Below, piece after piece: positions 16,938 through 32,159 of a stretch of DNA of 64,000 nt. How positions within the stretch are numbered: the first letter of the stretch is position 1; every line of letters starts with the position of its first letter. The notes beneath the pieces are model-generated. The model searched no databases. It had not been told where the DNA came from and saw only the letters and a program-made list of their open reading frames with translations. A program made the translations under genes and the position numbers. Source of the DNA: Caenorhabditis remanei (taxonomy: Eukaryota; Nematoda; Chromadorea; Rhabditida; Rhabditidae); the NCBI RefSeq assembly GCF_010183535.1, contig NC_071330.1, positions 11,823,717 through 11,887,716 of the forward strand, given 5' to 3'.

Positions 16938-17567
16938 TTTGACAGTAGTTTGAAAATAGGAGTTAGAAATGAATAACCTAGAAGATCCCCTTTTATACAG
17001 AGACTTACACTGAGCAATTGCTATGGCATGGTAAAGATTCAAGGGATGGTGTTCGTTGTCTTGCTCATGTTAAATACATTCAGACATGTGTCAGAGCGTT
17101 GAATGACATGATACACAGACAGAAATAGATTTGAAGAAAGAGAAGAAAAAGAAGAAAAAATAAAGGTTTCAAATGAAAGGGGGATCTAACTATTGGTATA
17201 TAGGAAAACATTTTCTTGGGTTTTCGAAAGTCGAATGAAAAATCACAAACCGTAATTTGACATCAGTGGTTATAAAACTGAATTAACATTTGTAAACGAC
17301 TGTAACTAAAATCAGTTTAAATTTTCCATAAACTTTTTTGAAGGAAATCTACACAAAGTCTTCGAGAATCAACATCTCTTCGAAACAATACAGGTTAATC
17401 AGACTCCGTTACGTTTTGAAACCAGATATTTGGAAACCGTGTCATTTCGAAACCAGACGCTTCGAAACCATGACATTTCGACACTAACCGTGGAAAATAT
17501 GTATACTGACAGAGAGTTATTTCGCGATCTAATAAAAGTTAGAAGGAAATTGCACAATTTTTCATTT
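16938..17567. other. Spacer upstream of the LTR element
   Basis: No gene is seen. TTTCGAAACCAGACGCTTCG-type words (about 17410-17485) belong to the same degenerate 'GAAACCAGACATTTCGA' repeat family seen near 9000, 33880 and 54000. Confidence 0.45.
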
Positions 17568-17988
17568 TGTAAGGTATTCGGTCAATACCTTAGGCCTGCT
17601 AGCTGTCTTAACCAATCCCCCTTCCAACCCTCTATCTCTAACCATTACAATCTTACACTTTCCAGGTCGAAACTGCTCGCATTCGCTCACAGTCTCCCCC
17701 ACACATCATCCTAGGCCTGCCATTGTCATCACCAACACCGACACCACAACGACACTCCGCTGTTCCTGTCTTTCCCGCTCATCACCGGAGGCGCCACTAA
17801 TTCTCACCCATTAACTCCGCCCATTTCTCACCCTATATAAGCCATCGTTTCTCGTTATCTAGGCAGTCTTACGGGGTCCCTGCCCGAGACCAACTTCTCT
17901 CATGTTTTCCGCCTTTAACCATTTAATTGTAAACGTTAAGTCTCTTTAATAAACTAGTAGTTCAGTACAAAAGTCTTGCGTTGTTACT
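17568..17988 (+). repeat. 5' LTR
   Basis: Starts TGTAAGGTATTCGGTCAATA and ends TCTTGCGTTGTTACT. It contains a TATA box (CCTATATAAGCC, about 17831-17842) and a polyadenylation signal (AATAAA, about 17948), giving the U3-R-U5 order. It matches 25705-26125 in sequence and length. Confidence 0.92.
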
Positions 17989-18006
17989 GGTAGCAGCGAC
18001 CTAGGT
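17987..18006 (+). other. Primer-binding site
   Basis: TGGTAGCAGCGACC follows the 5' LTR directly. It starts TGG, as expected for pairing with the CCA end of a tRNA (complement ends GCTACCA). The priming tRNA cannot be named without a search. Confidence 0.6.
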
Positions 18007-18315
18007 TTTTCTTTTCTTTAGACTAACTTATAAAGACCCACCCACGCTTCCCACTCGTACTTTCTACTCTTTCTGTTTATTAGCTTTGGCTCGGGACCAT
18101 ACCCCGTTCTCTTTTCGTTTACACCCTCCCACCCACCCCTTTCTGTAGACAGCGCGCGTCTTCTTTTAGGTTCTTGTCTGGTGTAGGTTTAGGTTAGGTG
18201 TCTTGAATTCTCGATGGGAGAATTTGGCGTAAGATGCGCGTCCGTTTCTATTAGTCTCGTTTAGATCTTGTCACGCTTCTTTTCGTTTCTTAATATTTCG
18301 GTCAGCGTATTCGAA

Positions 18316-18327
18316 GGTAGTAATACC
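18316..18327 (+). other. GNRA-tetraloop hairpin motif, copy in leader
   Basis: GGTA-GTAA-TACC, flanked by TTCGAA and GACGT. It lies upstream of the Gag ATG. The same flanks and a compensated stem recur at 19549-19560 and 22078-22089. Confidence 0.5.
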
Positions 18328-18477
18328 GACGTTCTGCCGATAAAATTATCGATTTTATCCATATACCCGGCTTCGGCCAATCGCTCCTTTTCCGGCAGCA
18401 CATGGGCTGCTGGAATTAATTCGTTTCCTCTTTTGCAGGTAATTCTTAGTTCGGTTCATCAATCGGAGCGTTCAACA

Positions 18478-21471
18478 ATGTCCCGTCGTGGACATGGTGA
18501 TACCCGCCCTCCATGGGCAGTTACGGCGTCGGCTGGTAGAGTCACGGACAATTCGACAGTCACTCCGCAGCACATTTCGGCTGTCAAGAGAGCAGTGGCA
18601 TCTGATCTCACCTGGATCAAGGAGCATCTGGAGGACTCTATCGCCGAGAAAATGAGGAATCTTGAAGGAGCAATCAACATGACGCAACAACAAGTCAAGG
18701 AGGCAGAGGGCAAAGCAGTTGCCATGGAGGAGAAGCTGGAGGATGTGCTCACCCAGTTTGGGATTCTGTCCGAGAGCTTCAAGAAGCTTCAGGAGACTGC
18801 GGTTTGCGAAGGCGTTAAACCCGACGCAGCGGTTCTCCTAGGAAACTTCGTTCCTCACCCGATGTCCTTTTCTAACGTGCCTTCGGCAAATGGTTCCGCA
18901 TCGAACCTGGCTTTCAATGCTAATGAGGAGCTGCCGAGAGCGTCAACACCAATGTCAATCAATGGGATCAGCGGCAACCACGATATGCAAGTGGAGATGC
19001 CAAATGTGTACTATGACGGAGACAAGGAAATAGACATTTCCGCTATTGCGGAGGAAGTCGTGACAATGGCTGGGAATCCAGCACAGCAGGAATCTGGTCT
19101 GCAACCGGTGCAGAATGAACTGGGATCAGATGTGAACACAATGCAGTTAGCATTGGTTGGACAGGCGCAAGAAGCGTCAGTGGTCAGCGAAAGCGACGGG
19201 ACTCCAGTAGTCGGTGAGGAGGGGTGTTCCCTTGATAATCACGATAAGATGCAGTCGTCAACAGTTGGGTCGGCGACGGTTCAGACGGAACCTGTGCTTG
19301 CTTCAAGGCTGAGCAAAAGTGCCAAGAAGAAGCTGAAGAAACAAAAGAAGAGAGATGCGAAGATGATCGCACTGGACGGTTCTACACCGATTGGATCGGA
19401 TGAGAGTCGTGAGAGCACTCTGGAAAACGAGTCCTCGTTGAATATCGCTTCTGCACCGATTGGAGCTGATCAGGAACATGGTCCTGAGGGGTCTTCTGGA
19501 GTTGGAGACGCAAAGGTAAGCCCTGTTTTCACTGACACGGTATGCGAAGGTCGCAAGACCAACGTGGTGTCTAGTGATAACGTTAAGGGAGATGACAAAA
19601 ACATTTTAACCGAGCTTGGCTCAAATACTGAAACACTTCCACGTGTTATGGCAATTTCATTGGCGGATGCTGCACAGATCACGCCGTATAGTGGATCCAG
19701 CAAAGAGGATCTGAATGCTTTTATTCGGTCTTTTCAAGACAGGTTCAATCTGACGGAAGATGCTACGAAACCTGAAAATAAGGTAAGGTTTCTGCTCGCT
19801 TATCTCCGCGATGAAGCGAGGGATACTGTACAGGAAATTCTGGATAAGAAGAACGATGCCACGTTCGACGAATTGGTCGGTGAACTAAAGAAGAGATTCG
19901 CACATTCGGCGATGGGTGATCGTTATCGTGAACAACTGCGTTCAAGAAAGATGCGTCCTGATGAGACGGTGGAAGAATTTTACAGAGCTATCACACGCTT
20001 GGTGAAACAAATTCACAACAGTACAACGACGGATACTGCTAAGGACAGCATTTTCGAGCATTTCTTGTTTGGTCTACGGGACAATATGAAGATGGGTGTC
20101 AAGCTACACAAGCCGAAGAACCCTCGTGAGGCTCTGGAAGCAGCACTCGATGTTGAAGCCATGTTGCCACCAACAAATTCTGAAAGCGAGTTGTTGGCTG
20201 AGCTGAAAGCAATAGCTGCTAGTGTGCAAGGGAAGCCTTGGAACAATGGATCCTCGAGTACACAGGAAGGCGGAAGCAATCAGAATCGCTTCAACAATGG
20301 CCAAGGAAATGGTAACTACAGAAAGAAAGGAACATGTCACTACTGTAAGAAAGAAGGACACTTTGTTAGAGAATGTCTCAAGAGAGCTAGAGACCACCAG
20401 TCAAGAAACAAGATGAATCCGGTGGACAACCATCGTCAACAACAACCTCAGGTAAAGCAAGCAATGGCAAGTTCGACGGAGCTGGAATACCAGGCAAAGA
20501 TCAAGGCTCTGACCGAGCAGGTGGACTTGTTGAAGCGACGCAACGATCAGATCACAGCAGATCAATACGAAACTGATCGGATGCAGTGTTACATGTTACA
20601 ACATGCGAACGAAACAACGGTCGAGCAGGGCACATCATCTCGACCTGGACAGTATGTAACTCCGCAGATACTCGTCAGAGCGGAAGGTATACCTTGTTGG
20701 GCACTCATAGACACTGGAGCAAGCGTGTCAGTGGCTACCCGAGCTGTTGCTAAGCTTCTGGGAGTTGCCAGATTTGAACCAAACAGCGCTAATACGATTG
20801 TAGGCGTCGGGGGCAACACGGTCCCGGTTATCGGATCTGCATTGATCACATTCAGGATTGGAGCAACCTTGATTGAACACCGAATTCGTTTTATGGAGGA
20901 TTCGAGCTCGCAGACATCACATGAAGAATCCGATTTCATATTGGGAATCGACATCTTGTCGCGTTTGGCGTTTCTACAATTTGACTACCACAATCGGAGA
21001 ATTGTCATCGGTAGTAGCACATTGTCCATGAGGACTGGTCGACAAGCCGAAGTTGTTAGTACAAGATCGGAGGCGGAGAATCAAGACCTCTGCGAAATGG
21101 AGAGGAAGGAGGAAATAATTCCTTCCGATCAGGTTGCGAAGAGTGGTGTACTAAGCGAACACCCAGCCTTTGGCACCATTTGCGAATGTGGAAACACAGA
21201 CGCGGTGCGTTCGGGCAAAGAAAGAAATAACACGAAAATTTGTAACAAATTCCCACGGGAGATTAATGCAGCGAAAGAAGCGAACGGATTGGATGATCCA
21301 CACTACGGAGGTTCTTTGGAGGAGAAATGGACAGGAGAAACACGCCAAGATGAAGCAAAAATCGAGGAAAACGAGAAATTACAGGAGTTCTCTGACGAAA
21401 ACCCAACAACGAACAGTACCGAGAACATACGCGAAGATTGTCAACAAATTACGGAAGCATTCGATTGCTGA
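18478..21471 (+). CDS. Gag polyprotein with zinc knuckle and aspartic protease
   Basis: This 997-aa structural polyprotein would form the element's particle. The ATG at 18478 (MSRRGHGDTRPPWAV) is chosen because the frame before it has no ATG. Residues about 1-120 contain a helical segment (VKRAVASDLTWIKEHLEDSI, VKEAEGKAVAMEEKLEDVL). Residues about 120-400 are acidic and low-complexity, with a lysine cluster KSAKKKLKKQKKRD. The Ty3/Gypsy retrotransposon Gag domain spans about 405-555 (FIRSFQDRFNLTED, ELKKRFAHSAMGDRYREQL, VEEFYRAITRLVKQI). A CCHC knuckle (CHYCKKEGHFVREC) lies near 620. A retropepsin-like domain starts near 740 with active site ALIDTGASVSVA and later FILGIDILSRL. After the protease the frame continues about 130 charged residues and stops. 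No polymerase follows. Confidence 0.9.
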   Translation: MSRRGHGDTRPPWAVTASAGRVTDNSTVTPQHISAVKRAVASDLTWIKEHLEDSIAEKMRNLEGAINMTQQQVKEAEGKAVAMEEKLEDVLTQFGILSESFKKLQETAVCEGVKPDAAVLLGNFVPHPMSFSNVPSANGSASNLAFNANEELPRASTPMSINGISGNHDMQVEMPNVYYDGDKEIDISAIAEEVVTMAGNPAQQESGLQPVQNELGSDVNTMQLALVGQAQEASVVSESDGTPVVGEEGCSLDNHDKMQSSTVGSATVQTEPVLASRLSKSAKKKLKKQKKRDAKMIALDGSTPIGSDESRESTLENESSLNIASAPIGADQEHGPEGSSGVGDAKVSPVFTDTVCEGRKTNVVSSDNVKGDDKNILTELGSNTETLPRVMAISLADAAQITPYSGSSKEDLNAFIRSFQDRFNLTEDATKPENKVRFLLAYLRDEARDTVQEILDKKNDATFDELVGELKKRFAHSAMGDRYREQLRSRKMRPDETVEEFYRAITRLVKQIHNSTTTDTAKDSIFEHFLFGLRDNMKMGVKLHKPKNPREALEAALDVEAMLPPTNSESELLAELKAIAASVQGKPWNNGSSSTQEGGSNQNRFNNGQGNGNYRKKGTCHYCKKEGHFVRECLKRARDHQSRNKMNPVDNHRQQQPQVKQAMASSTELEYQAKIKALTEQVDLLKRRNDQITADQYETDRMQCYMLQHANETTVEQGTSSRPGQYVTPQILVRAEGIPCWALIDTGASVSVATRAVAKLLGVARFEPNSANTIVGVGGNTVPVIGSALITFRIGATLIEHRIRFMEDSSSQTSHEESDFILGIDILSRLAFLQFDYHNRRIVIGSSTLSMRTGRQAEVVSTRSEAENQDLCEMERKEEIIPSDQVAKSGVLSEHPAFGTICECGNTDAVRSGKERNNTKICNKFPREINAAKEANGLDDPHYGGSLEEKWTGETRQDEAKIEENEKLQEFSDENPTTNSTENIREDCQQITEAFDC
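19549..19560 (+). other. GNRA-tetraloop hairpin motif, copy in gag
   Basis: GGTC-GCAA-GACC with flanks TGCGAA and AACGT. It lies inside the Gag frame, where it encodes part of CEGRKTNVV. Confidence 0.5.
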
Positions 21472-21945
21472 AAATTTTTGGAGACGTGCTCAAATTAATT
21501 ACCGTCTTTTCTCTTTATTCTCGGGCCGTCGAACAGTTTAATTCACGAAGCAATACAGTAAAAACTTTTTCAACGCTGAGTACGGTATTAAAGGCGCACG
21601 CCCAAAGTCGAAATGGTCTCGCGACGCAAAGGCGGCCGAACGAATGTGGCGCGAAACGCTACGAGCTTGAATTGCAATTTTCGCGTGGCCTAACGTGTTT
21701 GTCGCCACGAAAAGAGTGTTTTCTGTATTTTGGGAGTAAAACTTCTCCAAAATTTTTATTTTCGGGTTTTTGCAAAATAAAGCCAGGCCAATCTAAGGCG
21801 TTCGTGCTCCGGTAAGCGCCTTTCCCTTCAGGAAAAGGCTGTTAAAAGTTCGCGGGGGGCGTTAAACGCTCTGGCTCTCCCTAGCATTCACTATTATCAT
21901 ATAATTGTGAGTTTTCTTGCAGAATCGCAGCTCAGCTTGGTTTTG
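21472..21945 (+). other. Structured non-coding gap before ORF2
   Basis: About 470 bp between the two element frames. It holds hairpin-forming words (GCCTTTCC..GGAAAAGGC near 21825, GGCGTTAAACGC near 21857) and ends in a strong splice acceptor, TTTTCTTGCAG, at about 21912-21922. A matching donor, CAG|GTAATT, sits in the leader at 18436-18444. Splicing between them would remove Gag and place the ORF2 ATG (21946) near the 5' end of a subgenomic mRNA. Confidence 0.5.
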
Positions 21946-24900
21946 ATGTCGATGTCGAAGAAGAGAGCAAAGAAAAGTGGAGGAGAAGAAGCCGATCCCC
22001 ACTCGGCTGCGGTCGAAAGTAAGGCTGTTTTCGCGCCTCAAGGCGATAAGGGTTCCGGAGAGGGTACAATATTCGAAGGTCGCAAGACCGACGTAGTACC
22101 GCTCTCCGGGTGCAAGCCCGCAATTTCACAAAATAACCCGCTCATTGAGCAAATTGATGAATCTAAAGATTCTATTTCGAATGGAAATTCCGTTATTGTC
22201 GAATCGTGTGATGAGGAATTGAGAAGAAAGACGCCGATGAAGAAGGAGGAGTCAACGCCAATCTTGCCTCCGGCAGACGACGAGTTCGATAACTTCATCA
22301 ACGATATCGAGGCGGACGGGTACCAGTACGATGAAGAAGAGGTTACGGACGTTTTAAATGGTCCAGACGCAGTGGAAGCCGAAGCCTTGTCACTTGATGC
22401 AGTTTCTGAGGAAGAAAAAGTGAACTCAGGTAACACTTGTTCAGAGAGTATTCCCACGTCGCCATCACCCCCACCCATGCTTTCTTCATCAGGATTTTCA
22501 GAGAGTAACAAAGGAAAAGAAGCACCGACGGCTCGTGCAAGGTCTCCAATCCGTGCACCATCACAGGAACCGGCGAAAGATCGACAGTCAGTAGAAGAAG
22601 TTCCAGAGCTGGAGGATTTGGAAGAGATTATGAGTTCGGATTATCACAAATACGCTCACTGGTATGACTGTGCTGAGGAAGGAGAAGAAAAGCCGAAAGA
22701 CCCGAGAAGAAAGGCGGTAGCTCGCGAAACCACGTTCTCGATTCAAGCGTTCAGGAAATACTCCTACAGTATTAGGAACGTTCCGTATGAGTTGCCCGAC
22801 GCTCTTCCGCAATCCCTGCAAGACAATAAATTCGTTGTTGTTCCGTCATCCAAGATATACGCGTTGTACATGGTAATGGAAACAGCGGGCGGCAGCTTCA
22901 TGTGCTGTCCCGTACACAAGGAGGTCGTAGCGGACGATCGGGCTGATCTGTTCGGAGTCTTGCTGGACGATACGGCATATGATTCAGCGTCTGGACGAAA
23001 CTTTGACATGTCAGATATCAATGTCACGGATGTCATCTTCGTGGAAGCACTCACTGTTCGCCCAAAAGCGCAAGTTGGTTCGTACATTAAGAAGATTTCG
23101 GAGGCAGGAGACCTCATGTCTCATAAGTATTGGAAGGTAGCACGGTGTTCTCGCCTGCTAAGAGATGTCCTTCATAATGAAACCGCGGTGCATGTTCCAG
23201 AATGCGATACCCGAAAGTCCAAAAGTTTCCTAGTAAACAATGTAGCAGAAACAGCGGTCGCTCACATCAAACTCTTCTCCGAAAGGGTGGATCTCTCAGG
23301 ATTTGTGGCTGTTGACGTGGTGAGACCCATCGTGCAGCCGGGACGTTGGATAGCGGGTTTTAAACCACCCTTTGAAGAGGAAGACAGAGTGATCAAAAAC
23401 GTACTATACCATCTGGACATTCCGCACGTCTTACCGGTGGTAACGCGAGTATATGCGTTAGATAAGAAAAGGTCCGATATCCTTGAGAAAGCACCGATTG
23501 TTTTCTGCAAAGAAAAAGATCCAGAACATCAAGACTTTCTGCAGTTGCAGAATCTAACGAAACTCGGAATCTACGGCGCGGAGGCCATGGCATCCGCCTA
23601 TTATGACCCGCACAAATACCACGGAAGAGTCCAGAAAGTCGTTCAAGGAAAGATAACAGAAATCTTCATCAAACTACAACTTCCAGAAAGACGAGCTTTT
23701 GCAAAGAACAAATGGAAGCAGGGAACGAGACTCTCTCTGAGATTTGAAACTTGCGCTCTAAGAGCCACGCTGTTATCTTTGACAGTAGAAAAGAAAATCG
23801 CCGATATTCGGGTGAAACCCTTACGCCGTGACGATTTCCCGTTCACATCGACTGGAGCTATTGGTCAAGCGGTCTTCACAGCCCATACACTCGAAAATCC
23901 ACGCCAGCGAGTCTTCCGTTTGTTAGGAGTAAAAAAGATCCCACGGTACCAAGAATGGATGCCTGCCATGAGAGCTCTAGCGACGATTCACGGAGCGGAA
24001 CCACCACCGGCGATTCCCAAGTTTGATGGCTCGTCAGCATACGAAGTCGGTGAATTGAAGCTAACCGAGGAGCAAGGAGCGGTCTTGAGACTTCTGGAGT
24101 CCGAGCAATACATTGCGGCCACCCTCTCGTGTGGTCCTGGATCGGGTAAGACGACTACGATCGTGTCGGCGATGGTAAAATACACCGCGAAGGTCAAAGG
24201 CGAATTCGCGGTGTTCACGGGTAATTCTAATGCGGCGATCACCCAGGGGGTCACGACTCTGCTCAGACTGGATGCCGAGCGTAAAATTCCAGCCGTTCGA
24301 CTCATCTCCAATGCTCATCGACAAGTCGTAGATGAGAGTGCGTTGACTGAAATCGACTTCCCGGCACTGTGGCCGGCGACACTGAAAAACCAAGTCATGT
24401 TCGAGGACAAGTTCGCGGGACCTCCTCGTCAGTACACGCTGTCAGCGGTGAAACATCTGAAGCGATACCAGCTGATTGCGAAGAAAGAACTGAAAAACAA
24501 ATACCTGAGGGACGCGATCACCGATGTAGCAGGCCAGAAGCCAGAACCGCCAACACATACTTTGATGGAAACATTCTTCCGAATTCTAAAACCGAAAGTG
24601 GTTCTCGGTACAGCTGACACTCTTAGACAAACGTTCAAGAACGAGCCCTGCCTCGACAACTGGAAACATTTGGTTAGAAATGTCATCATTGACGAAGCAT
24701 CGCAAGTCGGTCATCACGTCATCTCCAACCTATGTTTCACCTTCCCAAGAGGAAAGCTGTTGTTAGTGGGAGACGAGAAGCAGTTGCCACCATACAGTGA
24801 ACACTCATTTCCGGCAAAGTTGTACCGAATTCACTGCGGTCCAGTGTTTAGCCAAATTGTGAATCAAAACCTCCTGCCAAACTACACACTGAGCCGAGTC

Positions 24901-25512
24901 TATCGTTGCCCGGAGCAGTCAGTCAAGCTGATTTCAAGTCTCTATTACGGAGGAAGATTGACAGCAGCAAAAGAAGCCCAGGATCACTGTGATGTGCTGA
25001 AAACGATGGGACTTCCGGATCGAACGCCGTCTGTAGTCATAAACACCAGATCCAAGGAAAAGAAGGAGGGAACGAGTTGGTCAAACCAGCTCGAAATGGA
25101 ATACGCGGTGCGACTCGCGGAACGATTCCTAGCAGCCACAGAGTCGGAAGGAAAGACGGTGGCCATTGTGTCATTTTACTTGGCCCAAGTACAGGAAGTA
25201 GCAGCCAAGGCACCAAACGGAGTTACGGTAGCAAGCGTCGACGCTGTGCAAGGAAAGGAATTCCATCTGGTCATCCTTCTGACAACGCGCAGCCAACGTT
25301 TCTCGGGATTTTTGTGCTCACCGGAGCGGTTTACAGTAGCGGTCTCTCGCCATCAGGAAGCTCTCATCATCCTTGCCAATACGGCTTATCTTCTGGAACC
25401 ACCGAACTGGAAAGCTCTCATCGACGCAACCGCCAAGACTTCAATCCTGGAAGCATCATCGATTCCGTTTTTGCGATCGGCAAAGACAGAGGGGACACCA
25501 TTGCGAAAGTAG
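21946..25512 (+). CDS. UPF1-like superfamily-1 helicase carried by the LTR element
   Basis: A 1188-aa protein from the ATG at 21946 (MSMSKKRAKKSGGEEADP). Residues 1-230 are acidic and low-complexity; residues about 250-700 are folded-looking but unrecognised. The SF1 core then follows in order: a Q-like EEQGAVLRLLE, Walker A GPGSGKTTT (about 729), motif II IIDEASQVG (about 914), motif III LLVGDEKQLPP (about 939), motif IV region SRVYRCPEQS (about 985), motif V SVDAVQGKEFHLVIL (about 1095) and motif VI ERFTVAVSRHQEAL (about 1125). All catalytic residues are present, so ATPase and RNA/DNA unwinding activity is plausible. The layout is that of UPF1/senataxin/ZNFX1-type enzymes, many of which act on RNA or small-RNA pathways. 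No RT, RNase H or integrase is fused to it. It is not an ordinary host gene because it is flanked by LTR, PBS and PPT. Confidence 0.9.
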   Translation: MSMSKKRAKKSGGEEADPHSAAVESKAVFAPQGDKGSGEGTIFEGRKTDVVPLSGCKPAISQNNPLIEQIDESKDSISNGNSVIVESCDEELRRKTPMKKEESTPILPPADDEFDNFINDIEADGYQYDEEEVTDVLNGPDAVEAEALSLDAVSEEEKVNSGNTCSESIPTSPSPPPMLSSSGFSESNKGKEAPTARARSPIRAPSQEPAKDRQSVEEVPELEDLEEIMSSDYHKYAHWYDCAEEGEEKPKDPRRKAVARETTFSIQAFRKYSYSIRNVPYELPDALPQSLQDNKFVVVPSSKIYALYMVMETAGGSFMCCPVHKEVVADDRADLFGVLLDDTAYDSASGRNFDMSDINVTDVIFVEALTVRPKAQVGSYIKKISEAGDLMSHKYWKVARCSRLLRDVLHNETAVHVPECDTRKSKSFLVNNVAETAVAHIKLFSERVDLSGFVAVDVVRPIVQPGRWIAGFKPPFEEEDRVIKNVLYHLDIPHVLPVVTRVYALDKKRSDILEKAPIVFCKEKDPEHQDFLQLQNLTKLGIYGAEAMASAYYDPHKYHGRVQKVVQGKITEIFIKLQLPERRAFAKNKWKQGTRLSLRFETCALRATLLSLTVEKKIADIRVKPLRRDDFPFTSTGAIGQAVFTAHTLENPRQRVFRLLGVKKIPRYQEWMPAMRALATIHGAEPPPAIPKFDGSSAYEVGELKLTEEQGAVLRLLESEQYIAATLSCGPGSGKTTTIVSAMVKYTAKVKGEFAVFTGNSNAAITQGVTTLLRLDAERKIPAVRLISNAHRQVVDESALTEIDFPALWPATLKNQVMFEDKFAGPPRQYTLSAVKHLKRYQLIAKKELKNKYLRDAITDVAGQKPEPPTHTLMETFFRILKPKVVLGTADTLRQTFKNEPCLDNWKHLVRNVIIDEASQVGHHVISNLCFTFPRGKLLLVGDEKQLPPYSEHSFPAKLYRIHCGPVFSQIVNQNLLPNYTLSRVYRCPEQSVKLISSLYYGGRLTAAKEAQDHCDVLKTMGLPDRTPSVVINTRSKEKKEGTSWSNQLEMEYAVRLAERFLAATESEGKTVAIVSFYLAQVQEVAAKAPNGVTVASVDAVQGKEFHLVILLTTRSQRFSGFLCSPERFTVAVSRHQEALIILANTAYLLEPPNWKALIDATAKTSILEASSIPFLRSAKTEGTPLRK
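22078..22120 (+). other. Two GNRA-tetraloop hairpin motifs in ORF2
   Basis: GGTC-GCAA-GACC (22078-22089, flanks TTCGAA and GACGT) is followed by CGGGT-GCAA-GCCCG (22107-22120). A further possible stem, CGCC-TCAA-GGCG, lies near 22034-22045. Confidence 0.5.
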
Positions 25513-25693
25513 AAATACCGACGCGTCCCCTTCTCACATCATCATTCAACAAACCTTCAATTCACGAAACAATTCAAACACCCATTTACGAAGAAGACTT
25601 CACAAGTAATCAATAATCGCAAGTTTGAAATGGGGCTCTTTTTCACCCGGTTAGGAAAACGCTCATACACGACCGAGGGCGGTCGTTTTTCTT
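25513..25693 (+). other. Element 3' non-coding region
   Basis: About 180 bp after the helicase stop. It contains a 6-bp stem, ACGACC/GGTCGT (25669-25674 with 25681-25686), followed by TTTTT. Confidence 0.4.
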
Positions 25694-25704
25694 AAAAAGG
25701 GAGG
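25694..25704 (+). other. Polypurine tract
   Basis: AAAAAGGGAGG directly abuts the 3' LTR, as expected for the plus-strand primer of an LTR element. Confidence 0.85.
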
Positions 25705-26125
25705 TGTAAGGTATTCGGTCAATACCTTAGGCCTGCTAGCTGTCTTAACCAATCCCCCTTCCAACCCTCTATCTCTAACCATTACAATCTTACACTTTCC
25801 AGGTCGAAACTGCTCGCATTCGCTCACAGTCTCCCCCACACATCATCCTAGGCCTGCCATTGTCATCACCAACACCGACACCACAACGACACTCCGCTGT
25901 TCCTGTCTTTCCCGCTCATCACCGGAGGCGCCACTAATTCTCACCCATTAACTCCGCCCATTTCTCACCCTATATAAGCCATCGTTTCTCGTTATCTAGG
26001 CAGTCTTACGGGGTCCCTGCCCGAGACCAACTTCTCTCATGTTTTCCGCCTTTAACCATTTAATTGTAAACGTTAAGTCTCTTTAATAAACTAGTAGTTC
26101 AGTACAAAAGTCTTGCGTTGTTACT
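25705..26125 (+). repeat. 3' LTR
   Basis: 421 bp, the same length as the 5' LTR and apparently identical to it, followed by ATTTTTC host sequence. Confidence 0.92.
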
Positions 26126-26898
26126 ATTTTTCATTTTTCAGTTTTTTTTGGTTTTTGAACGTCTCGTACCTATACGTCCCGAAGCTGTTATTAATGAAAC
26201 CACTCAGCTCTAAATCCGTAAATCGACTCTTTATCTTCGTAAATCCACCCCAGATGCTGGTGCTCCCATTCTGAAATGTTCTCCAACTTTAAACTTTTCA
26301 TATTCCAAAAACCAGGAATCACTTCCTCAATTCACCACGAGATCTCTCTAATTTTCATATTTATTCCCAACATATAAACAGAAAAATTATGACTAATTGT
26401 CACATATACAAAATCAGGTGGCTCTCTCTCTCCTGCCAACTCTCCAAAGGATAAATTGATAATAAGGGGGTGAGGAAGGAGGTAGAAAAAGGAAAAATGG
26501 GAGGGGGATGTATAATAACTCCATGTTCAGAAGTAGAAACTCAGAAAAAAGAGTAATCATTTCTCTCCTGTGTAGTTTTTAATCAAAACAGAGTATTACT
26601 TATTCTTTTTGTAGCCTTCCCCTGATACTGGGGGTGGCCGGAGAGACTCTGTGATTATTTTTTCTTGCAACAAGTCTTTGGTCTTATTCCACAAACAAAA
26701 ATTTCAGACTTGACCTACAACAGATTCTGAGTTCTGGAAAAAAGGAAGATGGGTATCTGCAGATGGATCAGAGAGGTTTGTTTTTTTTATCTAGATGTTT
26801 GAATGTGTCTGTGTGATTGTCGGTTTGTCCACATGTCGTGGATCGCACTTGCACAATTTCTGTCTCAAGAAATTCCTGACCTTTTTTAATCTCTGCTA
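26126..26898. other. Spacer between LTR element and palindrome
   Basis: No confirmed gene. A possible short exon (about 26708-26776) follows an ATTTCAG acceptor and stays open, but it has a weak GTTTGT donor and no known domain. Confidence 0.35.
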
Positions 26899-30268: not shown

Positions 30269-31198
30269 ATATACCAATGGTTGAAACCAATCCCCCACCA
30301 CAATGAATTTTTATAGATGTATCAATGTTGATACCTATATTACAAGAAAATCTTTGATCTGCCCCTATTTTGCAAAACCCAAAAAACCGTTTACATAAAA
30401 CTTGTTCAGCCAACAAATCTTTGGTCTCCTTTCATTCTTTTTTCACCCCCTAATTTCCCCCTATAATTGCAGGGTTATAAATCTTACTGCACCCAATAGA
30501 AATACATAGTAAGGCATCAGGATCACCCGTATTGAATTATTTTTTCCCAACGTGCGACTTCTTATCACTACTGACACGATCGTGATACGCTTAGTTTTTG
30601 TAGACTACGAAATACAATTGAGAAGCGTGTTGAGAGCTACAGAAATCAAGATTACTGTAGATACGAAAAAAGAATAGTCGTATCGGTATCAAAAGATCAA
30701 TTGCATGGCAGAATAGGTCGGGAAGCGCGGTGAGGTTGTAAAGGGTCGAGTGATCTATTAACTTTTTTCACCAATTTGGGTTTCGAACATGACGAATTTT
30801 AATTTTAGAACAGTGGTCAACTGCGGAAGTTTAGGATTTAAAAAATCAAGGTTGCATGATGTTGGTTACGGTTTTTGAACGGTTTTTGAAATGAACGAAT
30901 TTGTTTTTGGAATCTAAACTGCTGTAGATCAAATCGCAAGCGGTCGAATTCATAGGGACCTCAAATTTGAAGTAGAGACGCTTAAAAAGATTGAAGTTTT
31001 CAACTGAGAAGCCGAAAGTCTGAATCTGGAAAAAATCAGAAGATCATGGAACCTAGAGCCTCAGGGTGACCGAATCTAAAGAAATCAGACTTATCAAAAA
31101 TTGGGCTCCGCTCGGTCGGCCCCTAAACTCGACGTTTTCCAAAAAATACATTTCAAAAAATTTCAAAAAATTCAAACTTTGGTTCAAAATGGTCCGAA

Positions 31199-31248
31199 CT
31201 GGGCCGGGTCGAGAATAATTTTGATTTCAGTCCGGCCTGTGAAAAGTC
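31199..31248. repeat. GGCCGGG-type dispersed repeat
   Basis: GGGCCGGGTCGAG, then ATTTTGATTTCAGTCCGGCC and TGTGAAAAGTCTG. A closely similar block with more GC pairs is at 34204-34265, and a related phrase lies near 31381-31440. Confidence 0.5.
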
Positions 31249-32159
31249 TGAAAGAAATATCAACTTTTCACATAGATTTCCCCATAAACCAAAATCCGTA
31301 TGATACCGTAACTTGCCAAGAGAAATTTCGGATCAAATCTGAAAAAAATTATATTCAAATCAGACGAAAAACACCAAACTCAGATTTTGGTCTTAAAAAT
31401 GTAGGGCCGAATCGGAGCGAGATAAATTTTGAAAAAAACCACATTCTAATTTCACAGACTCCCTAAAAATTGGAGTGGACCGAATCTAGGATAGTCCTGA
31501 TTCGAGGAAGACAAAACCCAAAAAATTTGGTAAACCTCTGGCTGGGTGAACTCAAAACAATGCTCATATTCTAGTATTTTTAACATCCGGAAAAGATCTG
31601 AAATCACACCTGAAATTCCCTTTCTATCATCCCCAACGTCTTTGAAATTGCCCGCACAGTACGATCCCTGTGTACCTACTTATCTTTTTTCCTTTTTCTC
31701 ATTTTCGTATTTTTCTTTTTTCTTGCGTACTTTCCGAATTCCGTTATCTTGCCGTACAAGAGTACATCCTTCCTTTCTTCTCCGATCGTTTTTCTATCCT
31801 TTCGTATCGAATTAAACGAAAAAAGTGCGTGAGAAGAGACTCTAATCGGAAAAGTGCATGTGTGGAGGTCCATGTGACCATCAGATAAATCTTCTTTTCT
31901 CTCCGTTAAACAGTTTTTTTCTTTCCGCGGAACAGAATAAAGTCATGTGAGGAGAGAGAAAACGGTTTCGGAGGGGAGTTTTCTAGTCCTTCTGAACCTT
32001 TTTGTTGCAAAAAATTAATTTCTAACTGACAGGGCGCTAATGAGTGATGGGGAAGAACAGATAATGGGAGAACTGTCAATTTTGAGAGAATAGGTGTTTG
32101 ATGGAAGTGGTTGGAGGAACAAACACTTTGATCTTTTGATCTACGTTAAGGATAGTGAA

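Follow-up and report, generated by a model that had tools for sequence, protein, structure and literature searches.

A UPF1-like helicase as a likely lasting third gene of a Ty3/Gypsy-type retroelement lineage in Caenorhabditis remanei

Introduction

The Gypsy/Ty3 retrotransposon Cer1 of Caenorhabditis elegans carries the gene CERV in the env position, which is expressed from a spliced mRNA with the acceptor TTTCAG and is required for export of the Cer1 genomic RNA; according to that study, CERV lacks obvious homologs beyond nematodes, and its main text nowhere mentions a helicase (PMC10309623). Here, we describe a long terminal repeat (LTR) retroelement of Caenorhabditis remanei located at positions 17,568 to 26,125 of a 64,000-nt stretch of DNA (the window; RefSeq assembly GCF_010183535.1, contig NC_071330.1, positions 11,823,717 to 11,887,716, forward strand). 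Like Cer1, it belongs to the Gypsy/Ty3-type elements of Caenorhabditis and has an additional gene where env would lie; unlike Cer1 as presented in that source, it lacks the region from reverse transcriptase (RT) to integrase (IN) and carries a helicase rather than CERV. We consider it likely that this element belongs to a Ty3/Gypsy-type lineage that has the helicase as a lasting third gene, located in the env position, and that it is a pol-less, non-autonomous member probably copied in trans.

LTR elements of bdelloid rotifers carry family-specific third open reading frames (ORF3), some of them enzymatic and common to several retroelement types, and the non-autonomous family TelKA2n has kept an env-like ORF with most of pol missing (PMC5408684). 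The ORF3 types named in the accessible text are env, GDSL, DEDDy, CC and TM, with no helicase among them; the text uses the word helicase a single time (PMC5408684). Insect retrotransposons are known to carry a viral superfamily 1 (SF1) helicase with conserved motifs, for which suppression of silencing has been proposed (PMC5563155, PMC6338049) and was weak in a plant system (PMC6338049). As far as the available parts of these reports go, the insect cases are mostly long interspersed nuclear elements in which the helicase is part of a fused ORF and has its relatives among plus-strand RNA viruses, and the LTR cases named are Ty1/Copia-type fusions, whereas the helicase described here is a separate ORF of the AAA_11/AAA_12 type in a Ty3/Gypsy-type element (PMC5563155, PMC6338049). 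In the searched literature, outside which lay subscription papers and repeat databases, we found no Ty3/Gypsy element in which a UPF1-like helicase forms a gene of its own, and the layout may therefore be annotated somewhere.

Non-autonomous LTR elements moved by autonomous partners share the LTR, primer-binding site (PBS) and polypurine tract (PPT) with them and lack pol. To our knowledge, such partner-dependent elements usually keep no selected non-structural enzyme; unlike them, the element in the window retains a helicase. RNA helicases such as UPF1, MOV10 and ZNFX1 are generally encountered as factors of the host, where they take part in RNA quality control and in the silencing of transposons, and MOV10 is an inhibitor of retrotransposition.

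Anatomy of the Element

The element shows the LTRs, target-site duplication, PBS and PPT of a Ty3/Gypsy element (Table 1). The two LTRs are identical over 421/421 bp, and to judge from this identity the insertion is recent; the complement of the PBS presumably resembles the 3′ end of initiator tRNA-Met. The anatomy described in the original prediction (421-bp LTRs, PBS, PPT, a Gag with CCHC knuckle and DTGAS protease, and an 1188-aa helicase) was right in coordinates and ORF length. In Pfam searches, Gag matched Retrotrans_gag (2.7e-8, 34.3 bits) and Asp_protease_2 (30.3 bits, 7e-7) above the cut-offs; Ty3_capsid (28.6 bits) lay slightly below its cut-off of 29.1, and the zinc knuckle also fell below its own.

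RT, RNase H and IN were detected in neither frame by Pfam profiles up to E = 1, and the sole tblastn match of the Pol of L042, a relative in which the three domains stand in Ty3/Gypsy order, comprised 82 residues of the Pol C-terminal tail. The predicted absence of these domains therefore withstood a sensitive profile search of both frames. Having no pol of its own, the element is filed as a non-autonomous relative and not as an autonomous Ty3/Gypsy element.

That a host helicase gene was bracketed by LTRs by chance, or that a nested insertion created the arrangement, is hardly credible given the identical LTRs, the target-site duplication, the PBS and PPT, and the four LTR-bounded helicase copies that sit at unlinked sites. 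A single copy had been named as an outcome that would overturn the prediction; LTR-bounded helicase copies elsewhere in the genome rule out both a chance nested insertion and a single-copy freak.

Table 1. Coordinates of the element in the window, its hairpin sites and related features elsewhere in the genome.
Feature	Position	Strand	Remarks
Target-site duplication ATTT, left copy	17564..17567		flanks 5′ LTR
5′ LTR, 421 bp	17568..17988	+	same sequence as 3′ LTR
PBS-like site TGGTAGCAGCGACC	17988..18001	+	genome pattern, see text
gag (ORF1)	18478..21471	+	N-terminal region, capsid, CCHC, aspartyl protease, tail; Pfam, similarity to L042 Gag
CCHC zinc knuckle in gag	20335..20376	+	Pfam 18.7 bits, below cut-off of 20.8
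DTGAS protease active-site motif in gag	20710..20724	+	Pfam and sequence reading
Stretch matching a relative's pol 3′ tail, within gag tail	20984..21425	+	DNA alignment, tblastn
Candidate splice acceptor-like TTTTCTTGCAG	21905..21922	+	ends 23 bases 5′ of helicase ATG
SF1 helicase ORF (ORF2), 1188 aa	21946..25512	+	motifs I-VI at 24133-25350
PPT AAAAAGGGAGG	25694..25704	+	ends at 25704; junction pattern, see text
3′ LTR, 421 bp	25705..26125	+	same sequence as 5′ LTR
Target-site duplication ATTT, right copy	26126..26129		flanks 3′ LTR
Hairpin 1, leader	18303..18332	+	R1 42.9 bits, training site
Hairpin-like site, weak	18798..18827	+	R1 19.2 bits, E 0.033, non-training; own lowest-energy fold differs
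Hairpin-like site	19536..19565	+	R1 33.3 bits, non-training; own lowest-energy fold differs
Hairpin inside pol-tail-like stretch	21174..21203	+	R1 35.3 bits, non-training; folds as model
Hairpin, helicase N-terminal coding part	22065..22094	+	R1 45.5 bits, training site
Degenerate hairpin across helicase stop	25496..25524	+	R1 26.5 bits, non-training
Third-family element, C161	19174-31334	-	LTRs 19174-19567, 30953-31334; RNaseH 24933, AAA_12 19818
Third-family element, C6	21082420-21094560	-	LTRs 21082420-21082803, 21094181-21094560; AAA_12 21083051, RNaseH 21088167
Second-family LTR pairs with AAA_12	C4:6468499-6477706, C1:15581517-15609364, C3:2342206-2351391, C1:2700206-2709197, C3:1890976-1900122, C3:15250827-15258756		
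Inverted third-family-like LTR pairs	C2:19210082-19223831, C4:10563893-10577614, C4:20224111-20237830		
Mirrored DNA_pol_B_2 examples	C5:8371055/8383184, C4:24907516/24920685, C1:2716438/2729504		
Junction sites ending TGTAAGGTATCG	C1:2695015, C3:297757, C3:426495, C3:4804752, C3:5811940, C4:5759508, C4:17959859, C4:21697964, C5:18669016, C6:2116333		

Helicase and RT Elements of One Family

The LTR in the window has 69 whole or partial matches in the genome. The PPT-LTR junction pattern occurs at 15 exact sites and at 30 with up to two mismatches (reversed control 3), and the 5′ LTR-PBS pattern occurs at 16 sites (reversed control 0). These 16 sites were taken to define family 1, which comprises the window element, L039-L051, L054 and C5:2285019-2292316, the last read only as its 3′ 5 kb (L060). 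The LTR-like sites L052, L053 and L055-L058, with no PBS match and no match to the Gag or helicase of the window element, were excluded from the count.

Four of the 16 elements carry the helicase without RT (the window element, L039, L040 and L041), another four carry RT-RNaseH-IN (L042, L043, L044 and L060), eight carry neither (L045-L051 and L054), and none carries both. The RT-RNaseH-IN assignment was made by Pfam for L042 and by similarity to L042 Pol plus RNaseH for the other three. L042 and L043 each have an RT frame open over 1071 aa. That of L044 is open over 996 aa, with the beginning of pol in a different frame, and pol of L060 is interrupted. All 14 members with both LTRs readable have 4-bp target-site duplications and share the ends TGTAAGGTATTC...ACT, GGTAGCAGC and GGGAGG, helicase and RT types alike. 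LTR pairs are 100% identical in nine of these (97.8-99.8% in the other members), and L039, L040 and L041 each combine an identical pair with a 4-bp duplication.

The pol-less window element thus shares its LTR ends, PBS and PPT with RT-bearing relatives, and its Gag is 66% identical to that of L042 over 943 aligned positions. The original prediction had proposed movement in trans and a search for RT-encoding elements with the same LTR or PBS; L042, L043, L044 and L060 are such elements, and trans-mobilization by these sisters is probable from their shared sequences. In a 15-row LTR tree, the helicase elements L039/L040 group with the RT elements L042-L044 (98/98), and helicase element L041 groups with RT element L060 and the 6-kb elements (100/98).

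As to the remaining members, L046-L050 are five 6-kb elements with open frames of 375-424 aa, neither RT nor helicase, and very similar LTRs; a CCHC knuckle is present in both that were scanned, L046 and L049. L045, the two ends of which are repeats of one another over 1193 bp, appears to be a shortened copy of the 5′ portion of L044. A sister PPT-LTR junction ending in TGTAAGGTATCG occurs at ten places and perhaps marks a further related LTR family.

Probable Loss of pol and the Gag-Pol-Helicase Layout

The DNA of the window element aligns with L042 over 3.28 kb at 76%. The alignment is collinear, and about 3.1 kb of L042, containing RT-RNaseH-IN, has no counterpart in the window. Past the protease, the end of gag can be aligned with the 3′ tail of L042 pol (tblastn E 1.7e-4); the DNA alignment scores 362, whereas the best of 200 single-base shuffles reached 245. 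From this we infer that the element arose from a gag-pol-helicase layout by deletion of RT-RNaseH-IN.

Such a layout is found in a third LTR family, where two 12-kb elements (C161 and C6) contain pol and then a helicase domain, in the env position, inside one LTR pair. Direct reading of the C161 element gave the end of Pol (34/47 residues identical to L042 Pol), a stop, approximately 300 bp containing the acceptor-like TTATTTTTCAG, and then an ATG; at the opposite end, a PPT is followed by the LTR. Its helicase was identified by AAA_12 (91.7 bits), a 1100-aa frame and its position. The original prediction had placed the helicase where polymerase and integrase should be, a view that has to be revised, as the third family has pol followed by helicase and the window helicase, by comparison with these relatives, occupies the env position in an element that probably lost pol. 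Elsewhere, C102 holds one third-family LTR and RNaseH, with no AAA_12 among the matches listed, and no third-family LTR was found at C6:21238851 (RNaseH)/21245961 (AAA_12, internal stop).

A second family was recognized through L059, where a PPT and then an LTR different from that of family 1 stand behind a helicase at C4:6469531. This 537-bp LTR has 34 genome matches, from which nine same-strand pairs up to 28 kb apart were formed, each full-length match being used once, and compared with lists of at least 45 AAA_12 and at least 99 RT_RNaseH matches. Among the matches listed, six of the nine pairs enclose AAA_12 only, two RNaseH only (C4:16768987-16779821 and C4:16807353-16818152), one neither (C3:13852260-13858955) and none both. 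At 27.8 kb, the pair at C1:15581517 probably contains a further insertion. Across the three families, 12 of the 45 AAA_12 matches listed lie between LTRs, in open frames of 1073-1243 aa.

Several side observations concern these LTRs. At C2:5180622-5182155 and C148:199282-200299, a helicase copy that is broken or incomplete adjoins a lone second-family LTR or a piece of one; both are likely decayed members. About 300 bp resembling the third-family LTR (92-94% identical to it) occur in inverted pairs approximately 13.7 kb apart, and the pair on C2 flanks DNA_pol_B_2 matches that are oriented as mirror images. DNA_pol_B_2 matches often form mirrored pairs of equal scores on opposite strands, approximately 7-14 kb apart, as if Maverick-like elements were palindromic or had been mirrored by assembly.

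The Helicase, Its Relatives and Its Selection

ORF2 matches AAA_12 (1e-26) and AAA_11 of Pfam, and together with the SF1 motifs I-VI (GPGSGKT, DEAS, GDEKQL, VYRC, QGKE, VAVSR) this core makes it a UPF1-like SF1 helicase. All six motifs are also present in L039, L040 and L041, the helicases of which are 57, 57 and 45% identical to that in the window at the amino acid level; the three family-1 helicase lineages are 41-58% identical to one another. The UPF1/ZNFX1-type assignment originally proposed holds at the level of the superfamily and fails for UPF1 or ZNFX1 proper, since a UPF1_1B domain, which L001 of the same genome has, was not detected up to E = 5 in the helicase of the window and Pfam detected no zinc fingers of the NFX1 type. 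The best sequence match in the PDB is ZNFX1 (E 3.9e-12, residues 908-1160), followed by UPF1 (2.6e-10) and a viral ORF1ab helicase (4.4e-8). As these matches are both cellular and viral, sequence alone does not decide between a cellular and a viral source. A single-sequence AlphaFold prediction of 22630-25509 had a mean predicted local distance difference test score of 32.6 and was not used.

Protein searches returned one match with the full helicase, 13 with its core and 11, generic helicases only, with a six-sequence profile. In a helicase-core tree of 12 rows, with Pristionchus and C. remanei proteins added in a later tree, the LTR helicases form a single clade (100/100). The best non-LTR matches are L003-L008 of the same genome (25-31% identity, E to 1e-44) and, elsewhere, four Pristionchus proteins (27-29%; P0006-P0009), which adjoin the LTR helicases in the tree (92/87) at a place that carries a long-branch warning. 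By these comparisons, nematode helicases are the nearest non-LTR proteins among those found. Two public C. remanei records, CRE_14293 and CRE_08884, are 93 and 94% identical to the L041 helicase. Within 22 kb, C2:15701817-15723229 contains four long open SF1 helicase frames on alternating strands (L003, L004, L005 and L007), and the helicases of L004, L006 and L008 have an unusual GCGKS P-loop.

Between L039 and L040, the helicase shows a nonsynonymous divergence (dN) of 0.056 and a synonymous divergence (dS) of 0.39 over 1155 codons (dN/dS approximately 0.14), and in its last quarter dN is 0.010 and dS 0.30. Comparisons with the window and L041 helicases are saturated over their whole length (dS undefined). 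Gag of both elements is truncated and full of stops, matches of L042 Gag ending at residues 523 and 551 and running through several frames, and each element has an internal duplication at a similar place; their common ancestor was therefore probably already without working gag and pol. The helicase is thus under purifying selection even between elements without gag and pol. Kept across the lineage and constrained in this way, it looks like a lasting, selected part of that lineage and, on this sequence record, is not a passenger.

A recent capture, in which a non-autonomous gag element took up a host helicase complementary DNA as functionless cargo, would fit the intronless helicase frame and the related long open frames of L003-L008. 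We nevertheless hold it to be very improbable, as the LTR helicases form one clade, the family-1 lineages have diverged to 41-58% identity and yet kept all SF1 motifs and the low L039/L040 dN/dS, and helicase domains are present in three LTR families.

A number of observations weigh against a lineage with an ancestral gag-pol-helicase layout. The pol-tail match is modest, and since its control consisted of shuffles that do not preserve dinucleotides and the stretch includes one hairpin, it is support and not proof. Selection was measured on the single pair L039/L040, where the N-terminal quarter (dN 0.168, dS 0.50) is less constrained. The window element forms a long, unplaced branch in the LTR tree, and 121 and 127 of 500 shuffled labelings cluster there as tightly as the helicase and RT labels, respectively, which makes the label-grouping test weak. 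The sequence CAG|GTAATT, located 5′ of gag in L042-L044 and the window element, is missing from L039/L040 at this place, and a shared cis-splice donor is therefore not supported. The gag-pol-helicase layout could also be a fusion private to family 3.

A rival proposal is that the three families each gained a helicase independently, with no common gag-pol-helicase ancestor and a split that is only apparent. The helicases of families 2 and 3 were recognized from the AAA_12 domain, ORF size and position and not by alignment with that of the window, approximately 59 N-terminal residues of the C161 frame show no similarity to the window helicase, and helicase and RT labels each require at least two changes in the LTR tree. 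Such separate captures appear unlikely to us, given that the helicase stands before the PPT in the ends read, that the 12 LTR-bracketed copies have open frames of 1073-1243 aa, and that a pol-tail remnant is present in the window element.

A Recurrent RNA Hairpin

One peptide recurs in different frames of the translations, and the underlying DNA has the form GCGAAGGTN-GNRA-NACCGACGC. The pattern GCGAAGGTNNNNNNACCGACG has 36 exact genome matches (reversed control 3), all of which, by manual comparison of coordinates, fall in the element sense in 15 of the 16 family-1 members; the copies in the window differ from it at fixed bases and are not among the 36. For covariation, 23 chosen copies (22 distinct) were aligned, of which 97.4% of cells are paired. 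The loop-closing pair varies (C-G 8, A-U 4, G-C 3, U-G 3, U-A 2, unpaired 2), and the covariation score was 0.210 as compared with 0.073 in shuffles (0/500 as high), a type of test inflated by row kinship. Two further measures, the number of pairs changed on both sides (175/500) and that of further pair types (253/500), were no higher than in shuffles, because five of the seven hairpin pairs never vary. In L041 and L046-L050, a lineage variant has the loop CUAA or CUAC instead of GNRA, and the aligned place in the leader of L041, L046 and L048 forms a fully paired 9-bp hairpin.

The model R1, built from the 23 rows, gave 52 matches in 33 sources, 51 of them in family elements and all of these in sense orientation (23 of the 51 are training sites); the only match outside, in L055, is marginal (14.7 bits). 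In the window, all six R1 matches lie within the element on the plus strand; four are non-training sites, of which one is weak, and for two of the six the fold of the site by itself departs from the model. No known RNA family was found in Rfam up to E = 1 over 17500-26200. A peptide repeat in place of an RNA hairpin would agree with the three gag copies in the window sharing one reading frame, and is disfavored because the leader also contains copies, and in L039/L040 further ones occur within the decayed gag and 3′ of the helicase stop. The hairpin may constitute a shared packaging or dimer signal.

Discussion

Taken as a member of a Ty3/Gypsy-type lineage with a helicase gene, the window element would be the helicase half of a split gag-pol-helicase lineage, the ancestral layout being one that we infer. 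Its full-length RNA would serve as both gag mRNA and genome, and the helicase ORF, far downstream, would be expressed from its own mRNA, spliced or trans-spliced at the acceptor-like TTTTCTTGCAG; similar acceptor-like sequences precede the helicase in L039, L041 and C161. RT-bearing sisters would supply reverse transcription and integration in trans, and the shared hairpin may mark partner RNAs for packaging or dimerization. The helicase itself would act on the element's own RNA, in export, stability, or escape from RNA surveillance or small-RNA silencing. We regard this as its most likely job, and its position suggests that it may play a CERV-like part.

A further-reaching proposal, which we put forward tentatively and regard as doubtful, is that of a two-part retrotransposon, in which RT and helicase elements would be interdependent, copied in trans and joined by the hairpin as a shared packaging code, similar to a multipartite virus, with the split present in more than one LTR family.

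In the genus of the best-known small-RNA model animal, a helicase of a type usually found among host factors thus appears as a selected retroelement gene. Both the use of a host-like helicase by a retroelement against surveillance and the existence of an LTR lineage as separate RT and helicase parts would be directly testable, and the covarying hairpin provides a concrete candidate for the recognition of partner RNAs.

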